NCBI GenBank assembly: GCA_964030785.1
Contig: OZ034968.1
Coordinates: 49,731,230 to 49,795,229, forward strand
Source: Siderastrea siderea
Taxonomy: Eukaryota; Cnidaria; Anthozoa; Scleractinia; Rhizangiidae
Direction of reading: 5' to 3'
Length of the DNA stretch: 64,000 bases
Position numbers and translations under genes: made by a program. The notes below the pieces were generated by a model. It saw nothing but the letters and a program-made list of their open reading frames with translations, made no database searches and was not told the origin of the DNA. This document shows positions 1,711 through 54,208 of the stretch, piece after piece (position 1 is the stretch's first letter; each line of letters begins with the position of its first letter).

Positions 1711-2055
1711 TCAGTTCAGCGTGTGATGTATAATTCGATGTCGATGTGTAATAAATGAATCGGCAATGTCATATTTTTTCCCACAACACTGTATTTCGAA
1801 GCCTGGGTGCTGTTTAAAAAAATACCGCACATAGTTCCTCCATGACAAATTCTCTATACCCTTCTCGTAGAACTGTCCATTTGTTCTTCTAGCTCTCTTG
1901 GAGAATTGTTCCGAATTCTTCCGCTTGCTGATCTCCTCGATTAAATTGTTTTGGAGACTGGTTGCATCCTCCGTAGCACTCGCTACCATCTCTGGCTGAC
2001 TGTCGTCAGCTTCCTCTGTAGCACTCGCCATCTCCTCCGTAGCACTCGCTACCAT
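1711..2055 (-). CDS. Chromodomain-less paralogue: acidic repeats plus C-terminal WRxY/CC module
   Basis: A 114-residue ORF ending in the same module as the chromodomain protein at 3,237: G-x-F-x2-K, then L-S-W-R-N-Y, FEIQCCGKKY and a histidine-rich tail ending HHTLN. The N-terminal half is a repeated acidic segment (SATEE, ADDSQPE). The reading frame stays open upstream of the methionine through a basic stretch to about 2,130, so the chosen ATG lies inside the repeats and the true 5' end may be spliced or lost. There is no chromodomain; the sequence upstream instead matches the first-exon flank of the split gene at ~30.5 kb, in opposite orientation. An AATAAA lies 50 nt past the stop (minus strand, 1,656-1,661), so this copy would use ordinary polyadenylation. 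Function unknown; possibly a pseudogene, although a second copy is also open. Confidence 0.5.
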   Translation of the reverse strand: MVASATEEMASATEEADDSQPEMVASATEDATSLQNNLIEEISKRKNSEQFSKRARRTNGQFYEKGIENLSWRNYVRYFFKQHPGFEIQCCGKKYDIADSFITHRHRIIHHTLN

Positions 2056-2612
2056 CTCTGGCTGACTGTCGTCAGCTTCCTCCGTAGCACTCGCCTTCCT
2101 TCTTTCTCTTACACGTTCACGTGAGTATTCAGAGCAGATTCACCGGCAATATCCTGGTTGTCGATTCACCATGGGTTCACCATGGGTTCATTCTGTAGTA
2201 GTGGGCCGAATGCAACAAATTATTTTGAAATTAAATTGTTGTGTGCTGGATCCAAGATGGCGGACAATTTTGCCGCCGAAACACATCTTGTCGAAAAAAG
2301 ACCTTTTCAATGTGGCTGGATCCAGATGAGATATGATCCAGCCAAAAGTCCGTAGAACTCAGCGAAACTCCTCAGTATCGCCAGGGTAATATTTTCAATT
2401 AATTTATTGGAAGCTAGTTTGAAAGTTTGAAAGGCGGGAAATCGGCGACGCGCGTGTAAATGTACAAAATCCCGCCAAAAGTACAGCCAAAACGAAAAAG
2501 AAATATTTTCTAACATTGCTGCAACCTCCACTATTAATTATCCACTATTTTTTTGTTTTTAATTTGGAGTTGAGTGCAAATTTTGAAATTTTTGAATGCA
2601 AATTTTGAAATT

Positions 2613-3046: not shown

Positions 3047-3061
3047 GGCTCTAAAAGAGCC
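3047..3061 (-). promoter_or_regulatory. Degenerate histone-type 3' stem-loop (third)
   Basis: On the minus strand this reads GGCTCTTTTAGAGCC, one nucleotide shorter than the 16-nt metazoan histone mRNA stem-loop. It is followed by ACTGCAGACCTAAAGAG, including a purine run that could resemble a histone downstream element. Confidence 0.5.
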
Positions 3062-3101
3062 AGTATTTGCATTTATGGTCATGACTTTTTTGGTCTGTGG
3101 T

Positions 3102-3117
3102 GGCTCCGAAAAGAGCC
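3102..3117 (-). promoter_or_regulatory. Histone-type 3' stem-loop (second)
   Basis: The minus strand reads GGCTCTTTTCGGAGCC: a 6-bp stem with a closing U-G pair and a TTTC loop, then ACCACAGACCAAAAAAG. It sits in a ~58-bp unit sharing GGTCATGACTTTTTTGGTC with its neighbour. It may be a spare 3' processing site or a relic of unit duplication. Confidence 0.6.
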
Positions 3118-3195
3118 GGTTTTAGCATATATGGTCATGACTTTTTTGGTCAGTGGAATAAGAGAGCATGAGTCATGACTTTATCATATGTGGTT

Positions 3196-3211
3196 GGCTC
3201 TGAAAAGAGCC
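3196..3211 (-). promoter_or_regulatory. Canonical histone-type 3' stem-loop after the chromodomain ORF
   Basis: On the minus strand, GGCTCTTTTCAGAGCC is the canonical animal histone mRNA stem-loop: 6-bp stem, 4-nt TTTC loop, A-rich 5' flank (AACAAC) and AACCA after the stem. It begins 25 nt after the TGA at 3,237, within the usual spacing for replication-dependent histone messages. The plus strand would give a GAAA loop, which does not fit the consensus, so the signal is strand-specific. Known biology: SLBP binds this hairpin and U7 snRNP cuts after it. A downstream element is weak here (GATAAAG). Confidence 0.8.
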
Positions 3212-3236
3212 GTTGTTAGATGCTGAGCTCCATCGA

Positions 3237-3761
3237 TCAGTTCAGCGTGTGATGTATAAATCGATGTCGATGTGTAATAAATGAATCGGCAATGCTATAT
3301 TTTTTCCCACAACACTGCATTTCGAAGCCTGGGTGCTGTTTAAAAAAAACCCGCACATAGTTCCTCCATGACAAATTCTTTATACCCTTCTTGTAGAACT
3401 GTCCATCTGTTCGTGATCTTGCTTTCTTGGAGAATTGTTTCGAATTCTCCCGCTTGCTGATCTCCTCGACTAAATTGTCTTGGAGACTGGTTGCATCCTC
3501 CGTAGCACTCGCTACCATCTCTGGCTGACTGTCGTCAGCTTCCTCTGTAGCACTCGCCTTCCTCTTCTTCCGGCGGTTGCCGAAGGCTGCTACCATCTCT
3601 GGTGGTAAATTTTTCACTGGTTCCCAAGTGTTCTGATTTTCATAGTTAAGCCATGAAACGAGCAATTCTACTCTTCCGTTTCTCTTTCTTCTCTTTAGGA
3701 TCTCTTTGACGTAAAATATTCCTGGTAGTATTTCTGGCTCTGGCACCTTCCGTTTTGACAT
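3237..3761 (-). CDS. Intronless chromodomain protein with WRxY/CC C-terminal module
   Basis: A 174-residue protein. I start it at the ATG in ACCGCCAAGATG (good Kozak context); the frame stays open 16 codons further, but that upstream stretch begins at GTG. Residues ~15-54 form a chromodomain: FYVKEIL, then LLVSWLNY and NTWEPVKNLP. All three aromatic-cage positions of HP1-type domains are present (Y17, W37, Y40), so methyl-lysine binding is plausible. A basic patch RRKKRK (63-68) may be a nuclear localisation signal. Residues ~69-100 are acidic repeats (SATEE, DDSQPE). Residues 120-174 form a module with SWRNY and QCCGKKY and a His-rich tail. The gene is short, has CCAAT boxes upstream and a histone-type stem-loop 25 nt past the stop, suggesting histone-like cell-cycle expression. 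A 3'-truncated copy lies inverted at 4,624. HP1 proteins carry a chromoshadow domain instead of this C-terminus. The role is inferred. Confidence 0.75.
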   Translation of the reverse strand: MSKRKVPEPEILPGIFYVKEILKRRKRNGRVELLVSWLNYENQNTWEPVKNLPPEMVAAFGNRRKKRKASATEEADDSQPEMVASATEDATSLQDNLVEEISKRENSKQFSKKARSRTDGQFYKKGIKNLSWRNYVRVFFKQHPGFEMQCCGKKYSIADSFITHRHRFIHHTLN

Positions 3762-4034
3762 CTTGGCGGTTGTGATTAACGGCGTCCGTCCCTGCCCCCT
3801 TTTAACCACTCCTGCGGATCGGAATCAAAGCGTTTTGATTGGTTGTTCACGAGAGCCAATTAGAAGCGAATTAGAACAAAGACGGTAATCACAATACAGT
3901 GATTGGCATAAGTTTTAGAAGATAACTCGTGTATTACGCAACTTCGTTTGTGCGCCATTTTTTGCTCGCGCTACAAACTTCGCATCGGACAAAATATCAC
4001 AAACGAATTCTCGAGATATCAAGGTTTACTTTGG
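3545..4034 (+). repeat. Foldback, left arm (~490 bp)
   Basis: This arm is nearly the exact reverse complement of 4,351-4,840, with symmetry axis at about 4,192. It contains the N-terminal half of the chromodomain gene, its promoter and ~130 bp beyond. The outer end falls in codons for the acidic linker. The inner end reads AAGGTTTACTTTGG. Confidence 0.9.
3780..3910 (-). promoter_or_regulatory. Promoter region of the chromodomain gene with CCAAT boxes
   Basis: Upstream of the ATG at 3,761 the minus strand holds CCAAT at 3,838-3,842 and at 3,902-3,906, plus an opposite-facing CCAAT near 3,855. A TATA-like TTAAAA lies ~40 nt before the ATG. CCAAT plus TATA is common in histone promoters. The same promoter exists in the inverted arm at about 4,475-4,605. 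Confidence 0.4.
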
Positions 4035-4350
4035 TATAAAATTTATCGCCAGCCGTTGCGTAATACACGAGTTATCGTCCAAAACTTGAAACGACAAATT
4101 CAATAGTGAAGTCGTCGAGCGAACATGAAAAGACTCAGCTGCGCCATGAAAGTTTACTTCGTTTGTGCGCCATTTTTGGTCACGCAGTAAACTTCGCATC
4201 GGACAAAATATTATAAACGAATTCTCTAGATATCAAGGTTTACTTTGGTATAACACGAGTTATGTTTGGAAAGTGATAGCAATACTGAGCACAGGTGCTT
4301 TATACCCCTGTATATCCATTGTTTCATGCAAGGCTAATCACATAACAAAA
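4035..4350. repeat. Foldback spacer with diverged tandem copies of the arm end
   Basis: The 316-bp spacer holds a second, diverged copy of the arm's inner end. The sequence around TTCGTTTGTGCGCCATTTTT and TCGCATCGGACAAAATAT appears at ~3,946-4,034 and again at 4,141-4,256, and once more at 4,842-4,915 beyond the right arm. No gene; a 64-codon ORF here is not credible. Confidence 0.7.
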
Positions 4351-4840
4351 CCAAAGTAAACCTTGATATCTCGAGAATTCGTTTGTGATATTTTGTCCGA
4401 TGCGAAGTTTGTAGCGCGAGCAAAAAATGGCGCACAAACGAAGTTGCGTAATACACGAGTTATCGTCTAAAACTTATGCCAATCACTGTATTGTGATTAC
4501 CGTCTTTGTTCTAATTCGCTTCTAATTGGCTCTCGTGAACAACCAATCAAAACGCTTTGATTCCGATCCGCAGGAGTGGTTAAAAGGGGGCAGGGACGGA
4601 CGCCGTTAATCACAACCGCCAAGATGTCAAAACGGAAGGTGCCAGAGCCAGAAATACTACCAGGAATATTTTACGTCAAAGAGATCCTAAAGAGAAGAAA
4701 GAGAAACGGAAGAGTAGAATTGCTCGTTTCATGGCTTAACTATGAAAATCAGAACACTTGGGAACCAGTGAAAAATTTACCACCAGAGATGGTAGCAGCC
4801 TTCGGCAACCGCCGGAAGAAGAGGAAGGGGAGTGCTACAG
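4351..4840 (-). repeat. Foldback, right arm (~490 bp)
   Basis: Reverse complement of 3,545-4,034. Its outer end (4,840) switches abruptly to a copy of the spacer sequence from 4,137 onward, so this arm was cut in the acidic linker codons. Confidence 0.9.
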
Positions 4841-4851
4841 CTGCGCCATGA
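4624..4851 (+). pseudogene. 3'-truncated chromodomain copy in the foldback
   Basis: 75 codons from the same ATG context as the intact gene. The chromodomain and RRKKRK basic patch are kept, then after GSAT the frame runs into foreign sequence and stops (AAP-stop). It lacks the acidic repeats, the C-terminal module and any stem-loop. Transcription from its own inverted promoter would run head-to-head away from the intact gene; read-through of the foldback would give a ~490-bp hairpin RNA. Confidence 0.75.
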
Positions 4852-6472: not shown

Positions 6473-6817
6473 TCAGTTCAGTGTGTGATGTATAATTCGA
6501 TGTCGATGTGTAATAAATGAATCGGCAATGTCATATTTTTTCCCACAACACTGTATTTCGAAGCCTGGGTTCTGTTTAAAAAAATACCGCACATAGTTCC
6601 TCCATGACAAATTCTCTATACCCTTCTCGTAGAACTGTCCATTTGTTCTTCTAGCTCTCTTGGAGAATTGTTCCGAATTCTTCCGCTTGCTGATCTCCTC
6701 GATTAAATTGTTTTGGAGACTGGTTGCATCCTCCGTAGCACTCGCTACCATCTCTGGCTGACTGTCGTCAGCTTCCTCTGTAGCACTCGCCATCTCCTCC
6801 GTAGCACTCGCTACCAT
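6473..6817 (-). CDS. Chromodomain-less paralogue, second copy
   Basis: This is the duplicate of 1,711-2,055, with 114 residues and one visible change in the C-terminal module (QHPGF becomes QNPGF). The acidic repeats, SWRNY, QCCGKKY and His-rich tail are kept. The ATG again falls in the acidic repeats, with an open frame upstream. Two duplicates with the frame intact mildly favour a functional protein, but the divergence is too small to show selection. Poly(A) signal at the equivalent position. Confidence 0.45.
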   Translation of the reverse strand: MVASATEEMASATEEADDSQPEMVASATEDATSLQNNLIEEISKRKNSEQFSKRARRTNGQFYEKGIENLSWRNYVRYFFKQNPGFEIQCCGKKYDIADSFITHRHRIIHHTLN

Positions 6818-7806
6818 CTCTGGCTGACTGTCGTCAGCTTCCTCCGTAGCACTCGCCTTCCTTCTTTCTCTTACACGTTCACGTGAGTATTCAGAGCAGA
6901 TTCACCGGCAATATCCTGGTTGTCGATTCACCATGGGTTCACCATGGGTTCATTCTGTAGTAGTGGGCCGAATGCAACAAATTATTTTGAAATTAAATTG
7001 TTGTGTGCTGGATCCAAGATGGCGGACAATTTTGCCGCCGAAACACATCTTGTCGAAAAAAGACCTTTTCAATGTGGCTGGATCCAGATGAGATATGATC
7101 CAGCCAAAAGTCCGTAGAACTCAGCGAAACTCCTCAGTATCGCCAGGGTAATATTTTCAATTAATTTATTGGAAGCTAGTTTGAAAGTTTGAAAGGCGGG
7201 AAATCGGCGACGCGCGTGTAAATGTACAAAATCCCGCCAAAAGTACAGCCAAAACGAAAAAGAAATATTTTCTAACATTGCTGCAACCTCCACTATTAAT
7301 TATCCACTATTTTTTGTTTTTAATTTGGAGTTGAGTGCAAATTTTGAAATTTTTGAATGCAAATTTTGAAATTGTTGAGTGCAAAAACGTGAAATTGAAT
7401 TTGATTGGCTAGTCGGTTCAAACTAGCCAATCAAATATTCACTTTTTTGCACTCAAAAGTTCAAAATAAATTTGGGTGCTCTCAGCCAATCAGATTGCAG
7501 AAATTTTTGTATGTATATTATTATGCAGATTATAAAAACAGTAATCATAAAAAAATGGAAACATTTTCGATGCAAGTGAAAGCAAGTTTTGTTGATAAAA
7601 TCTGTCGTTCGCGAACTGTCGAAATCAATGAAGATCAACAACTTTTCCGGCACTTCATAAAACTGCACTTTGACGAATTTCAGAGTATTATAATCACGAC
7701 AAAAATGTTTTGAGTATCGGTGAAATTCTGGATCTGGATATGAAAAGTAGCTTTTCTAAAAACGATAATTTGTTGATTTTTTTTTAGCACTCTTTAGGTC
7801 TGCAGT

Positions 7807-7821: not shown

Positions 7822-7861
7822 AGTATTTGCATTTATGGTCATGACTTTTTTGGTCTGTGGT

Positions 7862-7877
7862 GGCTCCGAAAAGAGCC
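7862..7877 (-). promoter_or_regulatory. Histone-type stem-loop relic (copy B)
   Basis: Identical to 3,102-3,117 (minus strand GGCTCTTTTCGGAGCC). No coding sequence lies upstream any more, because the satellite array starts 35 bp away. Confidence 0.5.
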
Positions 7878-7911
7878 GGTTTTAGCATATATGGTCATGA
7901 CTTTTTTGGTC

Positions 7912-10900
7912 TGTTTTCTGTACCATTGAACCTCTGCCCACCAAGGCCCGTTAGTTCCCAAGACTTTCTATGGGGTTTACACAAATTCCTAGGATGAACC
8001 CATGGGTCGAATTAGTTTCCAATATAACCAGAGCTATGCCAACCATGTCCTGTTAGTTACCAAGAGTTTTTACTGGATTTCATCAAATTACTAGCATGAA
8101 CCCATGGGTCAAATTGAAGCCATGCCATTGAAGCTCTGCCCACCATGTCCCGCTAGTTCCAAAGAGTTTTCACTGGGTTTAAACAACGTTCTATAATGAA
8201 CCCATGGGTCAAATTAGTTTTCATTATTACTCATGCAACAACACCCATGTCCCGCTAGTTCCCAAGAGTTTTCACTGGGTTTAAACAAAGTTCTATGATG
8301 AACCCATGGGTCAAATTAGTTTTCATTATTACTCATGCAACAACAACCACGTCCCGCTAGTTCCCAAGAGTTTTCACTGGATTTAAACAAATTCCTGGGA
8401 TGAGCCCATGGGTCCAATTAGTTTCCAATATCACCCAAGCTATGCCAACCATGTCCTGTTAGTTACCAGGAGTTTTTACTGGATTTCAACAAATTACTAG
8501 CATGAACCCATGGGTCAACCATATCACCCAAGCTATGCCAACCATGTCCTGTTAGTTACCAGGAGTTTTTACTGGATTTCATCAAATTACTAGCATGAAC
8601 CCATAGGTCAAATTCCTAGGATGAACCCATGGGTCGAATTAGTTTCCAATATCACTAGAGCTATGCCAACCATGTCCTGTTAGTTCCGAAGAGTTTTTAC
8701 TGGATTTCAACAAATTACTAGCATGAACCCCTGGGTCAAATTAGTTTCCAATATCACCAAAGCTATGCCAACCATGTCCTGTTAGTTCCCAAGAGATTTT
8801 ACTGGATTTCAATAAATTACTAGCATGAACCCATGGGTCAAATTGAAGCCATGCCATTGAAGCTCTGCCCACCATGTCCCGCTAGTTTTCAAGAGTTTTC
8901 ACTGGGTTTAAACAACGTTCTATAATGAACCCATGGGTCAAATTAGTTTTCATTATTACTCATGCCACAACACCCATGTCCCGCTAGTTCGCAAGAGTTT
9001 TCACTGGGTTTAAACAAAGTTCTATGATGAACCCATGGGTCAAATTAGTTTTCATTATTACTCATGCAACAACAACCATGTCCCGCTAGTTCCCAAGAGT
9101 TTTCACTGGGTTTAAACAAATTCTTGGGATGAACCCATGGGTCCAATTAGTTTCCAATATCACCCAAGCTATGCCAACCATGTCCTGTTAGTTCCCAAGA
9201 GTTTTCACTGCGTTTAAACAAAGTTCTATGATGCACCCATGGGTCAAATAAGTTTCCGGTACCATTGAAGCTCTGCCCACCAAGTCCCGTTAGTTCCCAA
9301 GACTTTCCACGGGGTTTACACAAATTCCTAGGATGAACCCATGGGTCGAATTAGTTTCCAATATGACCAGAGCAATGCCAACCATGTCGTGTTAGTTACC
9401 AAGAGTTTTTACTGGATTTCATAAAATTACTAGCATGAACCCATGGGTCAAATTCCTAGGATGAACCCATGGGTCGAATTAGTTTCCAATATCACTAGAG
9501 CTATGCCAACCATGTCCTGTTAGTTCCCAAGAGTTTTTACTGGATTTCAAAAAATTACTAGCATGAACCCATGGGTCAAATTAGTTTCCAATATCACCAA
9601 AGCTATGCCAACCATGTCCTGTTAGTTCCCAAGAGATTTTACTGGATTTCATCAAATTACTAGCATGCACCCATGGGTCAACCATATCACCCAAGCTATG
9701 CCAACCATGTCCTGTTAGTTACGAAGAGTTTTTACTGGATTTCATCAAATTACTAGCATGAACCCATGGGTCAAATTCCTAGGATGAATCCATGGGTCGA
9801 ATTAGTTTCCAATATCACTAGAGCTATGCCAACCATGTCCTGTTAGTTCCCAAGAGTTTTTACTGGGCATGAACCCATGGGTGGAATTAGTTTCCAATAT
9901 CACCAGAGCAATGCCAACCATGTCCTGTTAGTTACCAAGAGTTTTTACTGGATTTCATCAAATTACTAGCATTCACCCATGAGTCGATCATATCACCCAA
10001 GCTATGCCAACCATGTCCTGTTAGTTGCCAAGAGTTTTTACTGGATTTCAACAAATTACTGGATTTCAACAAATTACTAGCATGAACCCATGGGTCAAAT
10101 TAGTTTCCAATATCACCAAAGCTATGCCAACCATGTCCTGTTAGTTCCCAAGAGATTTTACTGGATTTCAATAAATTACTAGCATGAACCCATGGGTCAA
10201 ATTGAAGCCATGCCATTGAAGCTCTGCCCACGATGTCCCGCTAGTTCCCAAGAGTTTTCACTGGGTTTAAACAACGTTCTATAATGAACCCATGGGTCAA
10301 ATTAGTTTTCATTATTACTCATGCCACAACACCCATGTCCCGCTAGTTCCCAAGAGTTTTCACTGGGTTTAAACAAAGTTCTATGATGAACCCATGGGTC
10401 AAATTAGTTTTCATTATTACTCATGCAACAACAACCATGTCCCGCTAGTTCCGAAGAGTTTTCACTGGATTTCAACAAATTCCTGGGATGAACCCATGGG
10501 TCCAATTAGTTTCCAATATCACCCAAGCTATGCCAACCATGTCCTGTTAGTTCCCAAGAGTTGTCACTGCGTTTAAACAAAGTTCTATGATGCACCCATG
10601 GGTCAAATAAGTTTCCGGTACCAATGAAGCTCTGCCCACCAAGTCCCGTTAGTTCCCAAGACTTTCCACGGGGTTTACACAAATTCCTAGGATGAACCCA
10701 TGGGTCGAATTAGTTTCCAATATCACCAGAGCAATGCCAACCATGTCCTGTTAGTTGCCAAGAGTTTTTACTGGATTTCAACAAATTACTAGCATGAACC
10801 CATGGTTCAAACATATCACCCAAGCTATGCCAACCATGTCCTGTTAGTTAGCAGGAGTTTTTACTGGATTTCAACAAATTACTAGCATGAACCCATGGTT

Positions 10901-13900
10901 CAAACATATCACCCAAGCTATGCCAACCATGTCCTGTTAGTTGCCAAGAGTTTTTACTGGATTTCAACAAATTACTAGCATGAACCCATGGGTCAAACAT
11001 ATCACCCAAGCTATGCCAACCATGTCCTGTTAGTTCCCAAGAGTTTTCAAAGTTCTATGATGAACCCATGGGTCAAATTAGTTTTCTGTATCAGTCAAGC
11101 TACACCAACCCTAGTTCCCAGGAGTTTTTATTGGGTTTAAACAAAGTTCTATGATGAACCCATGGGTCCAATTAGTTTCCAATATCACCCAAGCTATGCC
11201 AACCATGTCTTGTTAGTTCCCAAGAGTTTTCACTGGGTTTAAACAAAGTTCTATGATGAACCCATGGGTCAAATAAGTTTCCTGTACCATTGAACCTCTG
11301 CCCACCGAGGCCCGTTAGTTCCCAAGACTTTCTACGGGGTTTACACAAATTCCTAGGATGAACCCATGGGTCGAATTAGTTTCCAATATAACCAGAGCTA
11401 TGCCAACCATGTCCTGTTAGTTCCCAAGAGATTTTACTGGATTTTAATAAATTACTAGCATGAACCCATGGGTCAAATTGAAGCCACGCCATTGGAGTTC
11501 TGCCCACCATGTCCCGCTAGTTCCCAAGAGTTTTCACTGGGTTTAAACAACGTTCTATAATGAACCCATGGGTCAAATTAGTTTTCATTATTACTCATGC
11601 AACAACACCCAATTGTCCCGCTAGTTCCCAAGAGTTTTCACTGGGTTTAAACAAAGTTCTATCATGAACCCATGGGTCAAATTAGTTTTCATTATTACTC
11701 ATGCAACAACAACCATGTCCCGCTAGTTCCCAAGAGTTTTCACTGGATTTCAACAAATTCCTGGGATGAACCCATGGGTCCAATTAGTTTCCAATATCAC
11801 CCAAGCTATGCCAACCATGTCCTGTTAGTTCCCAAGAGTTTTCACTGCGTTTAAACAAAGTTCTATGATGCACCCATGGGTCAAATAAGTTTCCGGTACC
11901 ATTGAAGCTCTGCCCACCAAGTCCCGTTAGTTCCTAAGACTTTCCACGGGGTTTACACAAATTCCTAGGATGAACCCATGGGTCGAATTAGTTTCCAATA
12001 TCACCAGAGCAATGCCAACCATGTCCTGTTAGTTGCCAAGAGTTTTTACTGGATTTCAACAAATTACTAGCATGAACCCATTGGTCAAATTGAAGCCATG
12101 CCATTGAAGCTCTGCCCACCATGTCCCGCTTGTTCCCAAGAGTTTTCACTGGGTTTAAACAAATTCTTGGGATGAACCCATGGGTCCAATTAGTTTCCAA
12201 TATCACCCAAGCTATGCCAACCATGTCCTGTTAGTTCCCAAGAGTTTTCACTGGGTTTAAACAAAGTTCTATGATGAACCCATGGGTCAAATAAGTTTCC
12301 TGTACCATTGAACCTCTGCCCACCAAGGCCCGTTAGTTCCCAAGACTTTCTACGGGGTTTACACAAATTCCTAGGATGAACCCATGGGTCGAATTAGTTT
12401 CCAATATAACCAAAGCTATGCCAACCATGTCCTGTTAGTTTCCAAGAGATTTTACTGGATTTTAATAAATTACTAGCATGAACCCATGGGTCAAATTGAA
12501 GCCACGCCATTGGAGCTCTGCCCACCATGTCCCGCTAGTTCCCAAGAGTTTTCACTGGGTTTAAACAAAGTTCTATCATGAACCCATGGGTCAAATTAGT
12601 TTTCATTATTACTCATGCAACAACACCCATGTCCCGCTAGTTCCCAAGAGTTTTCACTGGGTTTAAACAAAGTTCTATGATGAACCCATGGGTCAAATTA
12701 GTTTTCATTATTACTCATGCAACAACAACCATGTCCCGCTAGTTCCGAAGAGTTTTCACTGGATTTCAACAAATTCCTGGGATGAACCCATGGGTCCAAT
12801 TAGTTTCCAATATCACCCAAGCTATGCCAACCATGTCCTGTTAGTTACCAAGAGTTTTTACTGGATTTCAACAAATTACTAGTATGAACCCATGGTTCAA
12901 ACATATCACCCAAGCTATGCCAACCATGTCCTGTTAGTTCCCAAGAGTTTTCACTGCGTTTAAACAAAGTTCTATGATGCACCCATGGGTCAAATAAGTT
13001 TCCGGTACCATTGAAGCTCTGCCCACCAAGTCCCGTTAGTTCCCAAGACTTTCCACGGGGTTTACACAAATTCCTAGGATGAACCCATGGGTCGAATTAG
13101 TTTCCCATATCACCAGAGCTATGCCAACCATGTCCTGTTAGTTCCCAAGAGATTTTACTGGATTTCAATAAATTACTAGCATGAACCCATGGGTCAAATT
13201 GAAGCCATGCCATTGAAGCTCTGCCCACCATGTCCAGCTAGTTCCCAAGAGTTTTCACTGGGTTTAAACAAATTCTTGGGATGAACCCATGGGTCCAATT
13301 AGTTTCCAATATCACCCAAGCTATGCCAACCATGTCCTGTTAGTTCCCAAGAGTTTTCACTGCGGTTAAACAAAGTTCTATGATGCACCCATGGGTCAAA
13401 TAAGTTTCCGGTACCATTGAAGCTCTGCCCACCAAGTCCCGTTAGTTCCCGAGACTTTCCACGGGGTTTACACAAATTCCTAGGATGAACCCATGGGTCG
13501 AATTAGTTTCCAATATCACCAGAGCAATGCCAACCATGTCCTGTTAGTTACCAAGAGTTTTCACTGGATTTCATCAAATTACTACCATGCACCCATGGGT
13601 CGATCATATCACCAAAGCTATGCCAACCATGTCCTGTTAGTTCCCAAGAGATTTTACTGGATTTCAATAAATTACTAGCATGAACCCATGGGTGAAATTG
13701 AAGCCATGCCATTGAAGCTCTGCCCACCATGTCCAGCTAGTTCCCAAGAGTTTTCACTGGGTTTAAACAAATTCTTGGGATGAACCCATGGGTCCAATTA
13801 GTTTCCAATATCACCCAAGCTATGCCAACCATGTCCTGTTAGTTCCCAAGAGTTTTCAAAGTTCTATGATGAACCCATGGGTCAAATTAGTTTTCTGTAT

Positions 13901-16900
13901 CAGTCAAGCTACACCAACCGTAGTTCCCAGGAGTTTTTATTGGGTTTAAACAAAGTTCTATGATGAACCCATGGGTCCAATTAGTTTCCAATATCACCCA
14001 AGCTATGCCAACCATGTCTTGTTAGTTCCCAAGAGTTTTCACTGGGTTTAAACAAAGTTCTATGATGAACCTATGGGTCAAATAAGTTTCCTGTACCATT
14101 GAACCTCTGCCCACGAAGGCCCGTTAGTTCCCAAGACTTTCTACGGGGTTTACACAAATTCCTAGGATGAACCCATGGGTCGAATTAGTTTCCAATATAA
14201 CCAGAGCTATGCCAACCATGTCCTGTTAGTTCCCAAGAGATTTTACTGGATTTTAATAAATTACTAGCATGAACCCATGGGTCAAATTCCTAGGATGAAC
14301 CCATGGGTCGAATTAGTTTCCAATATCACTAGAGCTATGCCAACCATGTCCTGTTAGTTCCCAAGAGATTTTACTGGATTTCAATAAATTACTAGCATGA
14401 ACCCATGGGTCAAATTGAAGCCATGCCATTGAAGCTCTGCCCACCATGTCCCGCTAGTTCCCAAGAGTTTTCACTGGGTTTAAACAACGTTCTATAATGA
14501 ACCCATGTTTCAAATTAGTTTTCATTATTACTCATGCAACAACAACCATGTCCCGCTAGTTCCCAAGAGTTTTCACTGGATTTCAACAAAAACCTGGGAT
14601 GAACCCATGGGTCCAATTAGTTTCCAATATCACCCAAGCTATGCCAACCATGTCCTGTTAGTTCCCAAGAGTTTTCACTGCGTTTAAACAAAGTTCTATG
14701 ATGCACCCATGGCTCAAATAAGTTTCCGGTACCATTGAAGCTCTGCCCACCAAGTCCCGTTAGTTCCCAAGACTTTCCACGGGGTTTACACAAATTCCTA
14801 GGATGAACCCATGGGTCGAATTACTTTCCAATATCACCAGAGCAATGCCACCCATGTCCTGTTAGTTACCAAGAGTTTTTCCTGGATTTCAACAAATTAC
14901 TAGCATGAACCCATGGGTCAAACATATCACCCAAGCTATGCCAATCATGTCCTGTTAGTTGCCAAGAGGTTTTACTGGATTTCATCAAATTACTAGCATG
15001 AACCCATGGGTCAAATTGAAGCCATGCCATTGAAGCTCTGCCCACCATGTCCCGCTAGTTCCCAAGAGTTTTCACTGGGTTTAAACAACGTTCTATAATG
15101 AACCCATGGGTCAAATTAGTTTTCATTATTACTCATGCCACAACACCCATGTCCCGCTAGTTCCCAAGAGTTTTCACTGGATTTAAACAAATTCCTGGGA
15201 TGAACCCATGGGTCCAATTAGTTTCCAATATCACCCAAGCTATGCCAACCATGTAGTGTTAGTTCCCAAGAGTTTTCACTGCGTTTAAACAAAGTTCTAT
15301 GATGCACCCATGGGTCAAATAAGTTTCAGGTACCATTGAAGCTCTGCCCACCAAGTCCCGTTAGTTCCCAAGACTTTCCACGGGGTTTACACAAATTCCT
15401 AGGATGAACCCATGGGTGGAATTAGTTTCCAATATCACCAGAGCAGTGCCAACCATGTCCTGTTAGTTACCAAGAGTTTTTACTGGATTTCAGCAAATTA
15501 CTAGCATGCACCCATGGGTCAACCTTATCACCCAAGCTATGCCAACCATGTCCTGTTAGTTACCAAGAGTTTTTACTGGATTTCATCAAATTACTAGCAT
15601 GAACCCATGGGTCAAATTCCTAGGATGAATCCATGGGTCGAATTAGTTTCCAATATAACTAGAGCTATGCCAACCATGTCGTGTTAGTTCCCAAGAATTT
15701 TTACTGGATTTCAACAAATTACTAGCATGAACCCATGGGTCAAATTAGTTTCCAATATCACCAAAGCTATGCCAACCATGTCCTGTTAGTTCCCAAGAGA
15801 TTTTACTGGATTTCAATAAATTACTAGCATGAACCCATGGGTCAAATTGAAGCCATGCAATTGAAGCTCTGCCCACCATGTCCCGCTAGTTCCCAAGAGT
15901 TTTCAAAGTTCTATGATGAACCCATGGGTCAAATTAGTTTTCTGTATCAGTCAAGCTACACCAACCCTAGTTCCCAGGAGTTTTTACTGGGTTTAAACAA
16001 AGTTTTATGATGAACCCATGGGTCCAATTAGTTTCCAATATCACCCAAGCTATGCCAACCATGTCTTGTTAGTTCCCAAGAGTTTTCACTGGGTTTAAAC
16101 AAAGTTCTATGATGAACCCATGGGTCAAATAAGTTTCCTGTACCATTGAACCTCTGCCCACCAAGGCCCGTTAGTTCCCAAGACTTTCTACGGGGTTTAC
16201 ACAAATTCCTAGGATGAACCCATGGGTCGAATTAGTTTCCAATATAACCAGAGCTATGCCAACCATGTCCTGTTAGTTCCCAAGAGATTTTACTGGATTT
16301 TAATAAATTACTAGCATGAACCCATGGGTCAAATTGAAGCCACGCCATTGGAGCTCTGCCCACTATGTCCCGCTAGTTCCCAAGAGTTTTCACTGGGTTT
16401 AAACAACGTTCTATAATGAACCCATGGGTCAAATTACTTTTCATTATTACTCATGCAACAACAACCATGTCCCGCTAGTTCCCAAGAGTTTTCACTGGAT
16501 TTAAGCAAATTCCTGGGATGAACCCATGGGTCCAATTAGTTTCCAATATCACCCAAGCTATGCCAACCATGTCCTGTTAGTTCCCAAGAGTTTTCACTGC
16601 GTTTAAACAAAGTTCTATGATGCACCCATAGGTCAAATAAGTTTGCGGTACCATTGAAGCTCTGCCCACCAAGTCCCGTTAGTTCCGAAGACTTTCCACG
16701 GGGTTTACACAAATTCCTAGGATGAACCCATGGGTCGAATTAGTTTCCAATATCACCAGAGCAATGCCAACCATGTCCTGTTAGTTGCCAAGAGTTTTTA
16801 CTGGATTTCATAAAATTACTAGCATGCACCCATGGGTCGATCATATCACCCAAGCTATGCCAACCATGTCCTGTTAGTTGCCAAGAGTTTTTACTGGATT

Positions 16901-17768
16901 TCAACAAATTACTAGCATGAACCCATGGATCGACCATATCATACAAGGTATGCCAACGATGTCCTGTTAGTTCCCAGGAGTTTTTACTGGATTTCAACAA
17001 ATTACTAGCATGAACCCATGGGTCAACCATTTCACCCAAGCTATGCCAACCATGTCCTGTTAGTTCCCAAGACTTTCCACGGGGTTTACACAAATTCCTA
17101 GGATGAACCCATGAGTCGAATTATAGTTTCCAATATCACGAGAGCAATTCCAACCATGTCCTGTTAGTTACCAAGAGTTTTTACTGGATTTCATCAAATT
17201 ACTAGCATGCACCCACCCATGGGTCGATCATATCACCCAAGCTATGCCAACCATGTCCTGTTAGTTCCCAAGAGTTTTTACTGGATTTCATCAAATTACT
17301 AGCATGAACCCATGGGTCAAATTGAAGCCATGCCATTGAAGCTCTGCCCACCATGTCCCGCTAGTTCCCAAGAGTTTTCACTGGGTTTAAACAACGTTCT
17401 ATAATGAACCCATGGGTCAAATTAGTTTTCATTATTACTCATGCCACAACACCCATGTCCCGTTAGTTCCCAAGAGTTTTCACTGCGTTTAAACAAAGTT
17501 CTATGATGCAGCCATGGGTCAAATAAGTTTCCGGTACCATTGAAGCTCTGCCCACCAAGTCCCGTTAGCTCCCAAGACTTTCCACGGGGTTTACACAAAT
17601 TCCTAGGATGAACCCATGGGTCGAATTAGTTTCCAATATCACCAGAGCAATGCCAACCATGTCCTGTTAGTTACCAAGAGTTTTTACTGGATTTCATAAA
17701 ATTACTAGCATGCACCCATGGGTCGATCATATCACCCAAGCTATGCCAACCATGTCCTGTTAGTTACC
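7912..17768 (+). repeat. Satellite array 1, forward monomers
   Basis: Roughly one hundred head-to-tail monomers of ~93-102 bp. Each starts near GAACCCATGGGTC and ends in a block such as GGATTTCAACAAATTACTAG, GTTTAAACAAAGTTCTATGA or CACAAATTCCTAGGAT. Monomer classes differ in the middle: CCAATATCACCCAAGCTATG, CCATATCACCC (shorter), GAAGCCATGCCATTGAAGC, CATTATTACTCATGCAAC, CCGGTACCATTGAAGC and CTGTATCAGTCAAGCTAC. Classes recur in a partly ordered, higher-order succession. The ~60-80-codon ORFs here repeat with the monomers and are not genes. Confidence 0.95.
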
Positions 17769-20102: not shown

Positions 20103-20403
20103 CTGAAGTTAAATCATAAATACATGAAACATCTCACACAACAATGTTTGTTGATTATTATTTTTTTATGGACTTTTGGCTGGATCCAGATGAGGTATGA
20201 GGGTGAACCCATGGCTCAAATTAACTGGCGATACTGAGGAGTTTCGCTGAGTTCTACGGACTTTTGGCTGGATCATATCTCATCTGGATCCAGCCAAAAG
20301 TCCATAGAACTCAGCGAAACTCTGGATCCAGCACACAACAATTTAATTTCAAAATAATTTGTTGATTATTTTTTTTTATTTGTGTAGATGACCCTAAGCT
20401 TAC

Positions 20404-20988
20404 TTTTGCTCTTGGCGGCATCGGTGGGCTCGGCATTCTCGGCATCGGTGGTCTCGTCATTCTCGGCATCGGTGGTCTCGGCATTCTTGGCATCGGTGGT
20501 TGGCATTCTCGGCATCGGTGGTGTCTGGGGTCTAAGGTACAGAGTACCCACCAACCAAGTTTTGGATGACTTTTCTGTCGTCACCGAATATTTTTGGGTT
20601 GCTTCGTCGATATCCACCACCTTAACATTAAGGAAATGATTCTTCCATTTGGCCATATATTCAAACTTGTCCATACTTATTATATCGTCTTCACTGACTT
20701 TCTTGGGCGGGCTCTTGGGTTTCTTGGGTTTTGTTTGTTTGGATGTTTTCTTGGATACACTTGGCAGACCTTCTAAGGGTTCTCTGTAGTCCTTGGGAAC
20801 TGCCTTTCCCCCGGAACCTGCCTCACAGAAGCCACCTTTGAACCAGATGGTTGAAGACCAAATCTCCTTCCCCTCTGCTGTCACGAGGCAAAACTGCCCT
20901 GTCATACTGTCACATGCCAGTGTTTTCATTGTACCTAAGACATTTTTTTTAGCCTCATGGTCTCTGATATGGTACCACAGTGGTCGTG
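20404..20988 (-). CDS. Tudor/chromo-barrel-like exon of the split gene
   Basis: A 585-nt phase 1-1 exon with acceptor ATATCTTTTCAG and donor GTAAGC, encoding 195 residues. The first ~75 (LWYHIRDHEAKK, CDSMTGQFCLVTAEGKEIW, WFKGGFCEAG) are well ordered but unassigned. A Lys/Pro-rich linker follows. Then comes a ~45-residue segment with EYMAKWKN, VKVVDIDE, KYSV and W-x4-LYLRP, which reads like a small SH3-like barrel of the Tudor/chromo-barrel type (low-confidence assignment). The end carries ETTDAEN repeats and AKSK. The methionine ORF extends into upstream satellite because the acceptor lies in frame; that extension is intronic. A broken copy is at 27,721. Confidence 0.6.
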
Positions 20989-21025
20989 CTGAAAAGATAT
21001 TAGAATAAATATTAAATAATTGATA

Positions 21026-22098
21026 TGATTGACCCATGGGTTCATGCTAGTAACTTGTTGAAATCCAGTAAAAACTCTTGGAACTAACAGGACATGGTTG
21101 GCATAGCTTGAGTGATATGATCGACCCATGGGTGCATGCTAGTAATTTTATGAAATCCAGTAAAAACTCTTGGTAACTAACAGGACATGGTTGGCATTGC
21201 TCTGGTGATATTGGAAACTAATTCGACCCATGGGTTCATCCTAGGAATTTGTGTAAAACCCGTGGAAAGTCTTGGGAACTAACAGGACTTGGTGGGCAGA
21301 GCTTCAATGGTACCGGAAACTTATTTGACCCATGGGTTCATCATAGAACTTTGTTTAAACCCAGTGAAAACTCTTGGAAACTGACAGGACATGGTTGGCA
21401 TAGCTTGGGTGATATTGGAAACTAATTGGACCCATGGGTTCATCCCAGGAATTTGTTTAAACCAAGTGAAAACTCTTGGAACTAGCGGGATATGGTTGTT
21501 GTTGCATGAGTAATAATGAAAATTAATTTGACCCATGGGTTCATCATAGAACTTTGTTTAAACCCAGTGAAAACTCTTGGGAACTAGCGGCACATGGTTG
21601 GTGTAGCTTGACTGATACAGAAAACTAATTTGACCCATGGGTTCATCATAGAACTTTGAAAACTCTTGGGAACTAGCGGGACATGGTGGGCAGAGCTTCA
21701 ATGGCATGGCTTCAATTTGACCCATGGGTTCATGCTAGTGTTGAAATCCAGTAAAAACTCCTGGGAACTAACAGGACATGGTTGGCATAGCTAGGGTGAT
21801 ATGGTTGACCCATGGGTTCATGCTAGTAATTTGTTGAAATCCAGTAAAAACTCTTGAGAACTAACAGGACATGGTTGGCATAGCTTTGGTGATATTGGAA
21901 ACTAATTTGACCCATGGGTTCATGCCAGTAATTTGATGAAATCCAGTAAAAACTCTTGGTAACTAACAGGACATGGTTGGCATAGCTTTGGTGATATTGG
22001 AAACTAATTTGACCCATGGGTTCATGCCAGTAATTTGATGAAATCCAGTAAAAACTCTTGGTAACTAACAGGACATGGTCGGCATAGCTTGGGTGATA
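21026..22098 (-). repeat. Satellite array 2, reverse monomers
   Basis: About ten to eleven reverse-oriented monomers directly upstream (in gene sense) of the Tudor-like exon. They end inside a monomer at GGTGATA, where the TIR of the next element starts. The monomer resumes at 26,631. Confidence 0.95.
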
Positions 22099-27010: not shown

Positions 27011-27720
27011 CAATTTGGATTTCAACAAATTACTAGCATGAAAACATGGGTCAACCATATCACCCAAGCTATGTCAGCAATGTCCTGTTAGTTACCAAGA
27101 GTTTTTACTTGATTTCAACAAACTTATTTCAGCTACCATTGAAGCTCTGCCCATCAAATCCCACGGGGTTTAAACAAATTGCTAGGATGAACCCATGGGT
27201 CGAATTAGTTTCTAATATTATTTCCAATATCACCAAAGCTATGCCAACCATGTCCTGGGTTTAAACAAATTCCTAGGATGAACCCATGGGTCAATTAAGT
27301 TCCAGGTACCATTGAAGCTCTGCCCATCAAATATCGTTACTTCCCAAGAGTTTGTAATGGGTTTAAACAAATTACTAGCATGAACCCATGGTTCAAATAA
27401 GTTCCCGGTACCATTGAAGCTCTGCCCACCAAGTTGCGTTAGTTCCCAAGAGTTTTCACGGGGTTTAAGCAAATTGCTAGCATGAACCCATGGGTCGAAT
27501 AAGTTTCCAATATCACCAAAGCTATGCCAACCATGTCCTGTTAGTTACCAAGAGTTTTTACTGGATTTCAACAAATTACTAGGATGAACCCATGGGTCAA
27601 ATAAGTTTGTTGAAATCCAGTAAAAACTCCCAAGCTATGCCAACCATGTCCTGTTAGTTACCAAGAGTTTTTACTGGATTTCAACAAATTACTAAGCTAT
27701 GCCAACCATGTCCTGTTAGT
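27011..27720 (+). repeat. Satellite array 2, forward monomers
   Basis: Forward monomers, several shortened. They end abruptly inside the Tudor-like exon copy. 26,619-27,602 recurs at 29,233-30,216 (offset 2,614). Confidence 0.9.
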
Positions 27721-28194
27721 TCGGTGGTCTCTGGGGTCTAAGGTACAGAGTATCCACCAACCAAGTTTTGGATGACTTTTCTGTCATCACCGAATATTTT
27801 TGGGTTGCTTCGTCGATATCCACCACCTTAACATTAAGGAAATGATTCTTCCGTTTGGCCATATATTCAAACTTGTCCATACTTATTATATCGTCTTCAC
27901 TGACTTTCTTGGGCGGGCTCTTGGGTTTCTTGGGTTTTGTTCGATTGGATGTTTTCTTGGATACACTTGGCAGACCTTCTAAGGGTTCTCTGTAGTCCTT
28001 GGGAACTGCCTTTCCCCCGGAACCTGCCTCACAGAAGCCACCTTTGAACCAGATGGTTGAAGACCAAATCTCCTTCCCCTCTGCTGTCACGAGGCAAAAC
28101 TGCCCTGTCGTACTGTCACATGCCAGTGTTTTCATTGTACCTAAGACATTTTTTTTAGCCTCATGGTCTCTGATATGGTACCACAGTGGTCGTG
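27721..28194 (-). pseudogene. Satellite-truncated copy of the Tudor-like exon
   Basis: Same acceptor and reading frame as 20,404-20,988, with changes such as QTKPKK to RTKPKK and AKWKN to AKRKN. It stops after YLRPQRPP, where satellite replaces the ETTDAEN repeats and donor, and translation ends within one codon. The lost tryptophan (AKWKN) in the barrel-like segment and the missing donor argue that it is not a working exon. Confidence 0.75.
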
Positions 28195-37976: not shown

Positions 37977-38805
37977 AAGAAATAAATTACTAGCATGAAC
38001 CCATGGGTCAAATTGAAGCCATGCCATTGAAGCTCTGCCCACCATGTCCCGCTAGTTTTCAAGAGTTTTCACTGGGTTTAAACAACGTTCTATAATGAAC
38101 CCATGGGTCAAATTAGTTTTCATTATTACTCATGCCACAACACCCATGTCCCGCTAGTTCGCAAGAGTTTTCACTGGGTTTAAACAAAGTTCTATGATGA
38201 ACCCATGGGTCAAATTAGTTTTCATTATTACTCATGCAACAACAACCATGTCCCGCTAGTTCCCAAGAGTTTTCACTGGGTTTAAACAAATTCTTGGGAT
38301 GAACCCATGGGTCCAATTAGTTTCCAATATCACCCAAGCTATGCCAACCATGTCCTGTTAGTTCCCAAGAGTTTTCACTGCGTTTAAACAAAGTTCTATG
38401 ATGCACCCATGGGTCAAATAAGTTTCCGGTACCATTGAAGCTCTGCCCACCAAGTCCCGTTAGTTCCCAAGACTTTCCACGGGGTTTACACAAATTCCTA
38501 GGATGAACCCATGGGTCGAATTAGTTTCCAATATCACCAGAGCAATGCCAACCATGTCGTGTTAGTTACCAAGAGTTTTTACTGGATTTCATAAAATTAC
38601 TAGCATGAACCCATGGGTCAAATTCCTAGGATGAACCCATGGGTCGAATTAGTTTCCAATATCACTAGAGCTATGCCAACCATGTCCTGTTAGTTCCCAA
38701 GAGTTTTTACTGGATTTCAAAAAATTACTAGCATGAACCCATGGGTCAAATTAGTTTCCAATATCACCAAAGCTATGCCAACCATGTCCTGTTAGTTCCC
38801 AAGAG

Positions 38806-41800
38806 ATTTTACTGGATTTCATCAAATTACTAGCATGCACCCATGGGTCAACCATATCACCCAAGCTATGCCAACCATGTCCTGTTAGTTACGAAGAGTT
38901 TTTACTGGATTTCATCAAATTACTAGCATGAACCCATGGGTCAAATTCCTAGGATGAATCCATGGGTCGAATTAGTTTCCAATATCACTAGAGCTATGCC
39001 AACCATGTCCTGTTAGTTCCCAAGAGTTTTTACTGGGCATGAACCCATGGGTGGAATTAGTTTCCAATATCACCAGAGCAATGCCAACCATGTCCTGTTA
39101 GTTACCAAGAGTTTTTACTGGATTTCATCAAATTACTAGCATTCACCCATGAGTCGATCATATCACCCAAGCTATGCCAACCATGTCCTGTTAGTTGCCA
39201 AGAGTTTTTACTGGATTTCAACAAATTACTGGATTTCAACAAATTACTAGCATGAACCCATGGGTCAAATTAGTTTCCAATATCACCAAAGCTATGCCAA
39301 CCATGTCCTGTTAGTTCCCAAGAGACTTTACTGGATTTCAATAAATTACTAGCATGAACCCATGGGTCAAATTGAAGCCATGCCATTGAAGCTCTGCCCA
39401 CGATGTCCCGCTAGTTCCCAAGAGTTTTCACTGGGTTTAAACAACGTTCTATAATGAACCCATGGGTCAAATTAGTTTTCATTATTACTCATGCCACAAC
39501 ACCCATGTCCCGCTAGTTCCCAAGAGTTTTCACTGGGTTTAAACAAAGTTCTATGATGAACCCATGGGTCAAATTAGTTTTCATTATTACTCATGCAACA
39601 ACAACCATGTCCCGCTAGTTCCGAAGAGTTTTCACTGGATTTCAACAAATTCCTGGGATGAACCCATGGGTCCAATTAGTTTCCAATATCACCCAAGCTA
39701 TGCCAACCATGTCCTGTTAGTTCCCAAGAGTTGTCACTGCGTTTAAACAAAGTTCTATGATGCACCCATGGGTCAAATAAGTTTCCGGTACCAATGAAGC
39801 TCTGCCCACCAAGTCCCGTTAGTTCCCAAGACTTTCCACGGGGTTTACACAAATTCCTAGGATGAACCCATGGGTCGAATTAGTTTCCAATATCACCAGA
39901 GCAATGCCAACCATGTCCTGTTAGTTGCCAAGAGTTTTTACTGGATTTCAACAAATTACTAGCATGAACCCATGGTTCAAACATATCACCCAAGCTATGC
40001 CAACCATGTCCTGTTAGTTAGCAGGAGTTTTTACTGGATTTCAACAAATTACTAGCATGAACCCATGGTTCAAACATATCACCCAAGCTATGCCAACCAT
40101 GTCCTGTTAGTTGCCAAGAGTTTTTACTGGATTTCAACAAATTACTAGCATGAACCCATGGGTCAAACATATCACCCAAGCTATGCCAACCATGTCCTGT
40201 TAGTTCCCAAGAGTTTTCACTGGGTTTAAACAAATTCTTGGGATGAACCCATGGGTCCAATTAGTTTCCAATATCACCCAAGCTATGCCAACCATGTCTT
40301 GTTAGTTCCCAAGAGTTTTCACTGGGTTTAAACAAAGTTCTATGATGAACCCATGGGTCAAATAAGTTTCCTGTACCATTGAACCTCTGCCCACCGAGGC
40401 CCGTTAGTTCCCAAGACTTTCTACGGGGTTTACACAAATTCCTAGGATGAACCCATGGGTGGAATTAGTTTCCAATATAACCAGAGCTATGCCAACCATG
40501 TCCTGTTAGTTCCCAAGAGATTTTACTGGATTTTAATAAATTACTAGCATGAACCCATGGGTCAAATTGAAGCCACGCCATTGGAGTTCTGCCCACCATG
40601 TCCCGCTAGTTCCCAAGAGTTTTCACTGGGTTTAAACAAATTCTTGGGATGAACCCATGGGTCCAATTAGTTTCCAATATCACCCAAGCTATGCCAACCA
40701 TGTCTTGTTAGTTCCCAAGAGTTTTCACTGGGTTTAAACAAAGTTCTATGATGAACCCATGGGTCAAATAAGTTTCCTGTACCATTGAACCTCTGCCCAC
40801 CGAGGCCCGTTAGTTCCCAAGACTTTCTACGGGGTTTACACAAATTCCTAGGATGAACCCATGGGTGGAATTAGTTTCCAATATAACCAGAGCTATGCCA
40901 ACCATGTCCTGTTAGTTCCCAAGAGATTTTACTGGATTTTAATAAATTACTAGCATGAACCCATGGGTCAAATTGAAGCCACGCCATTGGAGTTCTGCCC
41001 ACCATGTCCCGCTAGTTCCCAAGAGTTTTCACTGGGTTTAAACAAATTCTTGGGATGAACCCATGGGTCCAATTAGTTTCCAATATCACCCAAGCTATGC
41101 CAACCATGTCTTGTTAGTTCCCAAGAGTTTTCACTGGGTTTAAACAAAGTTCTATGATGAACCCATGGGTCAAATAAGTTTCCTGTACCATTGAACCTCT
41201 GCCCACCGAGGCCCGTTAGTTCCCAAGACTTTCTACGGGGTTTACACAAATTCCTAGGATGAACCCATGGGTCGAATTAGTTTCCAATATAACCAGAGCT
41301 ATGCCAACCATGTCCTGTTAGTTCCCAAGAGATTTTACTGGATTTTAATAAATTACTAGCATGAACCCATGGGTCAAATTGAAGCCACGCCATTGGAGTT
41401 CTGCCCACCATGTCCCGCTAGTTCCCAAGAGTTTTCACTGGGTTTAAACAACGTTCTATAATGAACCCATGGGTCAAATTAGTTTTCATTATTACTCATG
41501 CAACAACACCCAATTGTCCCGCTAGTTCCCAAGAGTTTTCACTGGGTTTAAACAAAGTTCTATCATGAACCCATGGGTCAAATTAGTTTTCATTATTACT
41601 CATGCAACAACAACCATGTCCCGCTAGTTCCCAAGAGTTTTCACTGGATTTCAACAAATTCCTGGGATGAACCCATGGGTCCAATTAGTTTCCAATATCA
41701 CCCAAGCTATGCCAACCATGTCCTGTTAGTTCCCAAGAGTTTTCACTGCGTTTAAACAAAGTTCTATGATGCACCCATGGGTCAAATAAGTTTCCGGTAC

Positions 41801-49749: not shown

Positions 49750-50926
49750 TTTTCACTGCGTTTAAACAAAGTTCTATGATGCACCCATAGGTCAAATAAG
49801 TTTCCGGTACCATTGAAGCTCTGCCCACCAAGTCCCGTTAGTTCCGAAGACTTTCCACGGGGTTTACACAAATTCCTAGGATGAACCCATGGGTCGAATT
49901 AGTTTCCAATATCACCAGAGCAATGCCAACCATGTCCTGTTAGTTGCCAAGAGTTTTTACTGGATTTCATAACATTACTAGCATGCACCCATGGGTCGAT
50001 CATATCACCCAAGCTATGCCAACCATGTCCTGTTAGTTGCCAAGAGTTTTTACTGGATTTCAACAAATTACTAGCATGAACCCATGGATCGACCATATCA
50101 TACAAGGTATGCCAACGATGTCCTGTTAGTTCCCAGGAGTTTTTACTGGATTTCAACAAATTACTAGCATGAACCCATGGGTCAACCATTTCACCCAAGC
50201 TATGCCAACCATGTCCTGTTAGTTCCCAAGACTTTCCACGGGGTTTACACAAATTCCTAGGATGAACCCATGAGTCCAATTATAGTTTCCAATATCACGA
50301 GAGCAATTCCAACCATGTCCTGTTAGTTACCAAGAGTTTTTACTGGATTTCATCAAATTACTAGCATGCACCCACCCATGGGTCGATCATATCACCCAAG
50401 CTATGCCAACCATGTCCTGTTAGTTCCCAAGAGTTTTTACTGGATTTCATCAAATTACTAGCATGAACCCATGGGTCAAATTGAAGCCATGCCATTGAAG
50501 CTCTGCCCACCATGTCCCGCTAGTTCCCAAGAGTTTTCACTGGGTTTAAACAACGTTCTATAATGAACCCATGGGTCAAATTAGTTTTCATTATTACTCA
50601 TGCCACAACACCCATGTCCCGTTAGTTCCCAAGAGTTTTCACTGCGTTTAAACAAAGTTCTATGATGCAGCCATGGGTCAAATAAGTTTCCGGTACCATT
50701 GAAGCTCTGCCCACCAAGTCCCGTTAGCTCCCAAGACTTTCCACGGGGTTTACACAAATTCCTAGGATGAACCCATGGGTCGAATTAGTTTCCAATATCA
50801 CCAGAGCAATGCCAACCATGTCCTGTTAGTTACCAAGAGTTTTTACTGGATTTCATAAAATTACTAGCATGCACCCATGGGTCGATCATATCACCCAAGC
50901 TATGCCAACCATGTCCTGTTAGTTAC

Positions 50927-54171: not shown

Positions 54172-54208
54172 CTGAAAAGATATTAGAATAAATATTAAAT
54201 AATTGATA

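Follow-up and report, generated by a model that had tools for sequence, protein, structure and literature searches.

A non-histone chromodomain gene with a candidate replication-dependent histone 3' end in the coral Siderastrea siderea

The chromodomain gene and its product

The window, a 64,000-nt stretch of the Siderastrea siderea genome (C3:49731230-49795229, in an assembly of 831 Mb and 402 contigs), carries on its minus strand an open reading frame of 174 amino acids plus stop (3237..3761), the coding part of which (3240-3761) is free of internal stops and is followed by TGA at 3237-3239. Evidence for the gene comes from the open frame itself, a Pfam Chromo match (29.7 bits against a cutoff of 25.1, E 6e-7), PDB matches to CBX/HP1 chains, the best being CBX4 (E 3.3e-8), and a family of homologs. 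The initial annotation, made from the sequence of this stretch, had described an intronless chromodomain ORF; Pfam bears out the chromodomain, which spans approximately residues 15-66, and the lack of introns is suggested by the open frame only. F16, W37 and Y40 are aromatic at three cage positions in the alignment to CBX4, positions that we take to be those of the chromodomain's aromatic cage.

The protein resembles HP1/CBX proteins in having a chromodomain with aromatic cage residues and differs from them in its histone-type 3' end, described below, in its C-terminus, which bears a CC...H..H motif of its own, and in its domain content, as Pfam found neither a Polycomb-box domain nor, at E up to 1, a chromoshadow domain in the 174-aa protein. 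Because the chromoshadow domain was not found, the protein was not filed as HP1 proper (CBX1/3/5), its chromodomain notwithstanding. Within the best overall explanation of the locus, the gene product is probably a small HP1/CBX-like methyl-lysine reader. A predicted structure (mean pLDDT 60.8, pTM 0.40) was too poor for a fold search and was not used.

An initial homolog search returned eight homologs and a profile search 128, and among the 120 of these 128 that were listed, many were ordinary HP1/CBX or polycomb proteins. In an alignment of 12 homologs with the window protein, some of them partial, the chromodomain and a C-terminal SWRNYVRxFF...CC...H motif (in its fuller form SWRNYVRxFF...CCGKxY...FITH..R..HH) were common to most. 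Family members from other sources share 43-72% identity and retain the cage residues and the C-terminal motif; the closest named near-full-length relative among the matches listed is chromobox protein homolog 5-like of Montipora foliosa (40% identity over 99% of the query). No relatives were confirmed in viral and prokaryotic contigs.

The window is rich in repeats, with a 102-bp satellite, a duplication at an offset of approximately 33 kb and a palindrome at 3545..4840, the arms of which (3545-4035 and 4350-4840) are listed as 100% complementary and align at 99.6% by BLAST. The palindrome yields a second 5' half of the same chromodomain gene, head-to-head with it, on the plus strand at 4576-4851, and it looks like a head-to-head gene pair with one half cut; elsewhere on C3 the corresponding halves are two whole genes, each with its own stem-loop. 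The satellite, with higher-order periods of 204 and 406 bp, forms long arrays at 7935-17765 and 38041-50883. Within the duplication lie two identical 223-aa ORFs without a Pfam family (20366-21037 and 53549-54220, 33183 bases apart), a shortened relative of which is found at 27716-28135 and 60901-61320.

Stem-loops and downstream elements behind the gene

Read on the minus strand, the stop codon TGA is followed after 25 nt by CTAACAAC-GGCTCTTTTCAGAGCC-AACCACATATG, in which GGCTCTTTTCAGAGCC (SL1, 3196..3211) forms a six-base-pair stem with a four-base loop. The distance to the stop, the shared strand, and the AACAAC before and AACCA after the stem can thus be read directly in the sequence, as the initial annotation had stated. 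Twelve nucleotides past the stem lies TAAAGTCATGACT (3171..3183, minus strand), which scores 13.1 bits with a position weight matrix built from 12 distinct histone downstream elements. SL1 is followed on the same strand by SL2, GGCTCTTTTCGGAGCC (3102..3117), with its own element AAAAGTCATGACC at 3077..3089, again 12 nt past the stem and matching letter for letter the one found in several of this genome's H4 genes, and by SL3, GGCTCTTTTAGAGCC (3047..3061), a decayed copy that is one base short and for which the position weight matrix found no downstream element. Element scores as high as that of SL1 occur at 6, and as high as that of SL2 at 5, of 127974 window positions, their own elements and copies of them included. 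SL2 and its downstream element recur as an orphan at 7829..7884 on the minus strand, bordering the 102-bp satellite, and no ORF of at least 50 aa ends within 400 nt upstream of this copy.

Two covariance models were applied to these sites. The minus-strand match to the Rfam histone stem-loop model that the initial annotation had named as a check was obtained for SL1 (RF00032, 33.8 bits, E 5.4e-6), missing the gathering cutoff of 34 by 0.2 bits, so that no Rfam match in the window passes at curated cutoffs; SL2 and its duplicate scored 30.3 bits (E 1.2e-4), and SL3 was absent from the RF00032 matches at E up to 10. The second model, R1, had 25 3' ends of H3 and H4 genes of this genome as its sole training set, and its E-values are rough. 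On the 64-kb window it matched SL2 at 41.5 bits (E 4.2e-6), the 7829-7884 duplicate equally and SL1 at 33.1 bits (E 2.1e-4); the next matches, at E of at least 1.7, are remnants of the same block, and SL3 scored 13.1 bits (E 2.3). The two further stem-loops had been described as weaker than the first: they do stand in tandem and SL3 is weak, having lost a base and having no downstream element, but SL2 is not the weaker signal by R1, which counts the downstream element. Matches in the window to MIR821 and other miRNA-like Rfam models fell under their cutoffs and were rejected, those over the palindrome being due to its inverted repeat.

Histone 3' ends of the same genome

The histone genes of this genome provide the standard for comparison. 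At least 150 PF00125 matches were obtained (150 of 624 candidates were scored), many of them in C10 arrays with a spacing of approximately 5.5 kb. In 30 fetched loci, all around H3 matches, 56 histone-type stem-loops were counted, of which 36 read GGCTCTTTTAGGAGCC, 19 GGCTCCTTTAGGAGCC and one GGCTCTTTTAAGAGCC; a pattern match to GGGGTTTTTTGACTCC was set aside from this count. The histone genes examined use GGCTC(T/C)TTTAGGAGCC, once with TTTAAG. Distinct 3' ends with enough sequence numbered 27, and two without an upstream ORF were dropped to leave the 25 used for R1. H3 and H4 are arranged head-to-head, and where the frame of either is complete the stem-loop lies 22-32 nt past the stop; the repeated C10 unit departs from this in its H4, the broken frame of which ends at 70 residues and leaves 131 nt up to the stem-loop. 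The downstream element of these genes is (A/T)AAAGTCATGAC(C/T), occurring as AAAAGTCATGACC (H4 type), as AAAAGCAATGACC (H3 type) and as variants.

One C10 unit was read whole, its histones being identified from their protein sequence, and it has five stem-loops of the TTTAGGAGCC kind, behind H3, H2B and H1 with whole frames and behind H2A and H4 with shifted frames. L038 and L058, which represent the same unit (C10:23124000-23129900), have intact stem-loops behind the frame-shifted H4 and H2A, which are either pseudogenes or assembly errors.

Measured against these genes, the chromodomain gene is alike in having a stem-loop soon past the stop, mostly ACCA after the stem, an element AAAAG(TC/CA)ATGACC approximately 12 nt later, CCAAT boxes, multiple copies, and head-to-head pairs, which in the histones join H3 and H4. 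It is unlike them in its non-histone product, in a loop and closing pair of TTTC-A or TTTC-G as opposed to TTTA-G, in a TTAAAAG where they have TATAAA, and in the tandem triplication of its stem-loops.

The promoter region

The promoter-like stretch at 3799..3906 (minus strand) contains CCAAT at 3902-3906 and 3838-3842, ATTGG at 3856-3860, GATCCG at 3815-3820 and TTAAAAG at 3799-3805. The upstream CCAAT boxes noted at the outset were recovered at -81 and -145, with the inverted one at -99. The TTAAAAG lies at -44, in contrast to the TATAAA of most H3/H4 promoters shown. Because similarity to the other copies begins approximately 150 bp before the ATG in L017, with the flank beyond unrelated, this stretch is part of the duplicated unit. 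An element TTTCGATCCG(A), or a near variant, occurs upstream of H3 in 11 of the 30 loci (L025-L029, L031-L035 and L037) and was not found in the H3 promoters of the repeated C10 units. A TTTCGATCCG-like site 65 nt before the chromodomain ATG (corrected p approximately 0.009) is unlike the histone promoters in distance and orientation; with 11 of 30 H3 promoters carrying it, and at differing distance and orientation, TTTCGATCCG is weak as a shared histone-promoter element and was rejected as such. Sites of this kind were also seen upstream of the second-family genes L018 and L020, described below.

Genome-wide copies of the stem-loop

From base composition, the number of exact 16-mer sites to be expected is 1.4e-5 for the window and 0.19 for the whole 831-Mb genome; the genome has 29 of them, and a reversed control was found once. 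Within the window, three sites with up to three mismatches were counted against 0.42 expected, and none of 100 shuffles reached three. All 29 exact sites lie 3' of members of two gene families, the chromodomain gene accounting for 16 and a second family for 13, and none lies behind a histone. A neighbouring histone gene was rejected as owner of the stem-loop, there being no histone among the window ORFs of at least 90 aa and none just upstream of the 29 exact sites. That the stem-loop arose by chance, for which one might cite the Rfam score just below the curated cutoff, is hardly credible in view of these expectations, of a downstream element that is both specific to the species and correctly spaced, and of the second family with the same signal; the genome-wide counts in effect refute it.

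The 174-aa frame is complete in 12 of the 16 chromodomain copies that precede an exact stem-loop, and the remaining 4 are broken or fused. Coding sequences of the 12 intact copies are identical save one base in L017, and because the copies are near-identical, the stem-loop that they share is mute on selection. R1 matches SL1 at 14 of the 16 sites (one in the window and 13 distinct sites elsewhere); that 14 gene copies out of 16 carry the signal in full further backs the reading of a histone-type 3' end. Two broken copies on C10 have lost the downstream element and give no R1 match at E up to 1. On C3, several chromodomain genes stand in head-to-head pairs, with approximately 2 kb between their stem-loops, and two of these pairs look, from their spacing, like duplicates of two others.

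Such an amplified gene might itself be a non-functional or barely expressed repeat that captured a histone 3' end at gene duplication and has carried it along as a relic or hitch-hiker. The setting fits this view, with a repeat-rich locus, palindromes, identical and truncated copies and orphan SL2/SL3 blocks, as does the fact that purifying selection between paralogs was not seen. Against it stand a TTTC loop followed by AGAGCC where the histones have TTTAGGAGCC, or once TTTAAGAGCC; the stem, loop and element intact at 14 of 16 sites, the two element-less sites being broken genes; and a protein family that keeps its cage residues and C-terminal motif in other sources. Because the stem-loop differs from those of the examined histone genes, these were not its recent source, and a recent copy of an own-genome histone 3' end was rejected on the different loop and closing pair in the H3/H4 loci fetched and in one histone unit. 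On balance a relic appears unlikely, and a functional 3' end made by the histone pathway is preferred.

Paralogs without a stem-loop

A close paralog of the chromodomain gene, of the MPKRKAPEPE type, is whole on C10 (L021:1840-2424) and twice 5'-truncated in the window, on the minus strand at 1711..2104 and 6473..6866, the latter inside a duplicate, 99.5% identical, of the sequence around the former. All three are without a stem-loop and carry a hexamer after the stop, AATAAA in the window paralogs (approximately 50 nt past the stop at 1711..2104) and TATAAA in the L021 paralog. Because close paralogs without a stem-loop carry AATAAA or TATAAA, the chromodomain family has two kinds of 3' end, and the stem-loop-less paralogs are a possible replication-independent form. 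Comparison with the C10 paralog gave a dN/dS of 1.76, which is indistinguishable from 1 (Fisher p 0.63), and the selection test is uninformative.

The paralogs raise the alternative that the principal mRNA, the stem-loop notwithstanding, receives its poly(A) tail at a site beyond it, as the excerpt of one study reports for H2A.X, a precedent for dual 3' ends (PMC7807067). Hexamers approximately 50 nt past the stop in family members speak for such dual or poly(A)-dependent expression. The signal behind the chromodomain gene is nevertheless complete, duplicated and close to the stop, and no AATAAA occurs from the stop to 3047 in the sequence read, so that this alternative is considered very improbable beside histone-type processing.

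A second family with the same 3' end

The second family (L001-L008, L018-L020, L022 and L023) encodes proteins of 75-82 aa that are unrelated to the chromodomain gene. Frames are whole in 11 of the 13 copies and broken in L005 and L007, and four of the proteins gave no Pfam match over cutoff. Three of the four subgroups share 32-41% identity with the fourth, and the stem-loop is kept in all four, 3-35 nt past the stop in copies whose frame was located. With R1, 12 of the 13 sites gave E 1.1e-4 or lower, and the remaining one, L005, gave E 0.028. Because a second, unrelated family has the same 3' end, a one-off accident is less likely. In L001, L002, L006, L019 and L020, two stem-loops stand in a row, GGCTCTTTTAGGAGCC or GGCTCTCCTC(C/A)GAGCC before GGCTCTTTTCAGAGCC, which may be compared with the tandem behind the chromodomain gene.

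A profile search with this family returned 63 homologs, 39 of them of 79 aa. Three of the 63 (P0048, P0049 and P0066) contain near their ends TALLRAT or TAVLRAT, the former being the peptide encoded by ACGGCTCTTTTAAGAGCCAC, and at the protein level they finish in NKTALLRATK or NKTAVLRATK, the former encoded by AACAAAACGGCTCTTTTAAGAGCCACCAAA. These three proteins look frame-shifted near the end, and conservation of the stem-loop signal in database homologs of the second family is suggested by them, three of 63. The L022 copy adjoins two ORFs with Pfam matches, one to DUF7869 (E 1.6e-14) and one to a BEN domain (E 5.6e-5), and the L023 ORFs are closely similar; the second-family copies beside the DUF7869 ORF look like part of a mobile unit.

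A probable histone-type 3' end outside the histones

SLBP is encoded in this genome, as two open stretches that neighbour each other matched PF15247, one at E 5e-12 and the other at E 6.8e-7. No U7 snRNA was found by Rfam RF00066 over its cutoff of 34 (best 24.5 bits, E 1.4); U7 being a short RNA of low conservation, this result weighs weakly against the proposed processing. The initial proposal, in which a chromatin gene other than a histone gene has a 3' end of the replication-dependent histone type, is supported by the RF00032 and R1 matches, by downstream elements at histone spacing and by SLBP. Taken as a whole, the best explanation, to which a probability of roughly three in four is assigned, is that the 3' end of the chromodomain mRNA is made by the histone pathway. 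SLBP would bind the stem-loop, the U7 snRNP would pair with (A)AAAGTCATGAC, and the transcript would be cut just past the stem without receiving a poly(A) tail. The mRNA would then be stable in S phase only, and a methyl-lysine reader would be supplied alongside new histones during chromatin copying, with the 12 intact copies, several of them head-to-head like H3-H4 pairs, perhaps providing a large S-phase dose.

From the genomic patterns, it is most likely that both non-histone families use poly(A)-free 3' ends of the SLBP/U7 type. Slightly favoured is the broader proposal of a coral S-phase regulon beyond histones, in which at least two unrelated small-protein families would have acquired the SLBP/U7 3' end in its entirety, namely the amplified HP1-like reader and the second family, with some copies of the latter in repeated units resembling mobile elements, and in which the chromodomain family would be split between stem-loop and poly(A) members in the manner of replication-coupled and replacement histones.

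To our knowledge, most accounts treat the 3' end without a poly(A) tail as a peculiarity of histone mRNAs. Judged by titles and the beginnings of abstracts, searches of the open-access PMC literature turned up no gene outside the histones that carries the histone 3' end in complete form, and a 2009 account, in the portion available, states that SLBP had never been implicated in direct regulation of non-histone genes (PMC2781718). The closest parallel comes from Hydractinia, in which, according to excerpts of PMC5011920, the canonical histones and H3.3.2 have a 16-nt stem-loop and a purine-rich downstream element without a poly(A) signal, and H3.3 is likewise split between a stem-loop member, H3.3.2, and a poly(A) member, H3.3.1. 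The Hydractinia genes differ from those described here in that all are histones and in that S-phase expression was shown, again in those excerpts, by EdU and in situ hybridisation (PMC5011920), whereas for the coral genes it is deduced.

If the proposed processing is correct, the S-phase pulse that brings new histones would also deliver a methyl-lysine reader, a point that would bear on the re-establishment of heterochromatin behind the replication fork. It would further mean that genes outside the histones, perhaps selfish ones among them, are able to take up the histone 3'-end pathway, and one could then test directly which features allow such a 3' end to pass from gene to gene.
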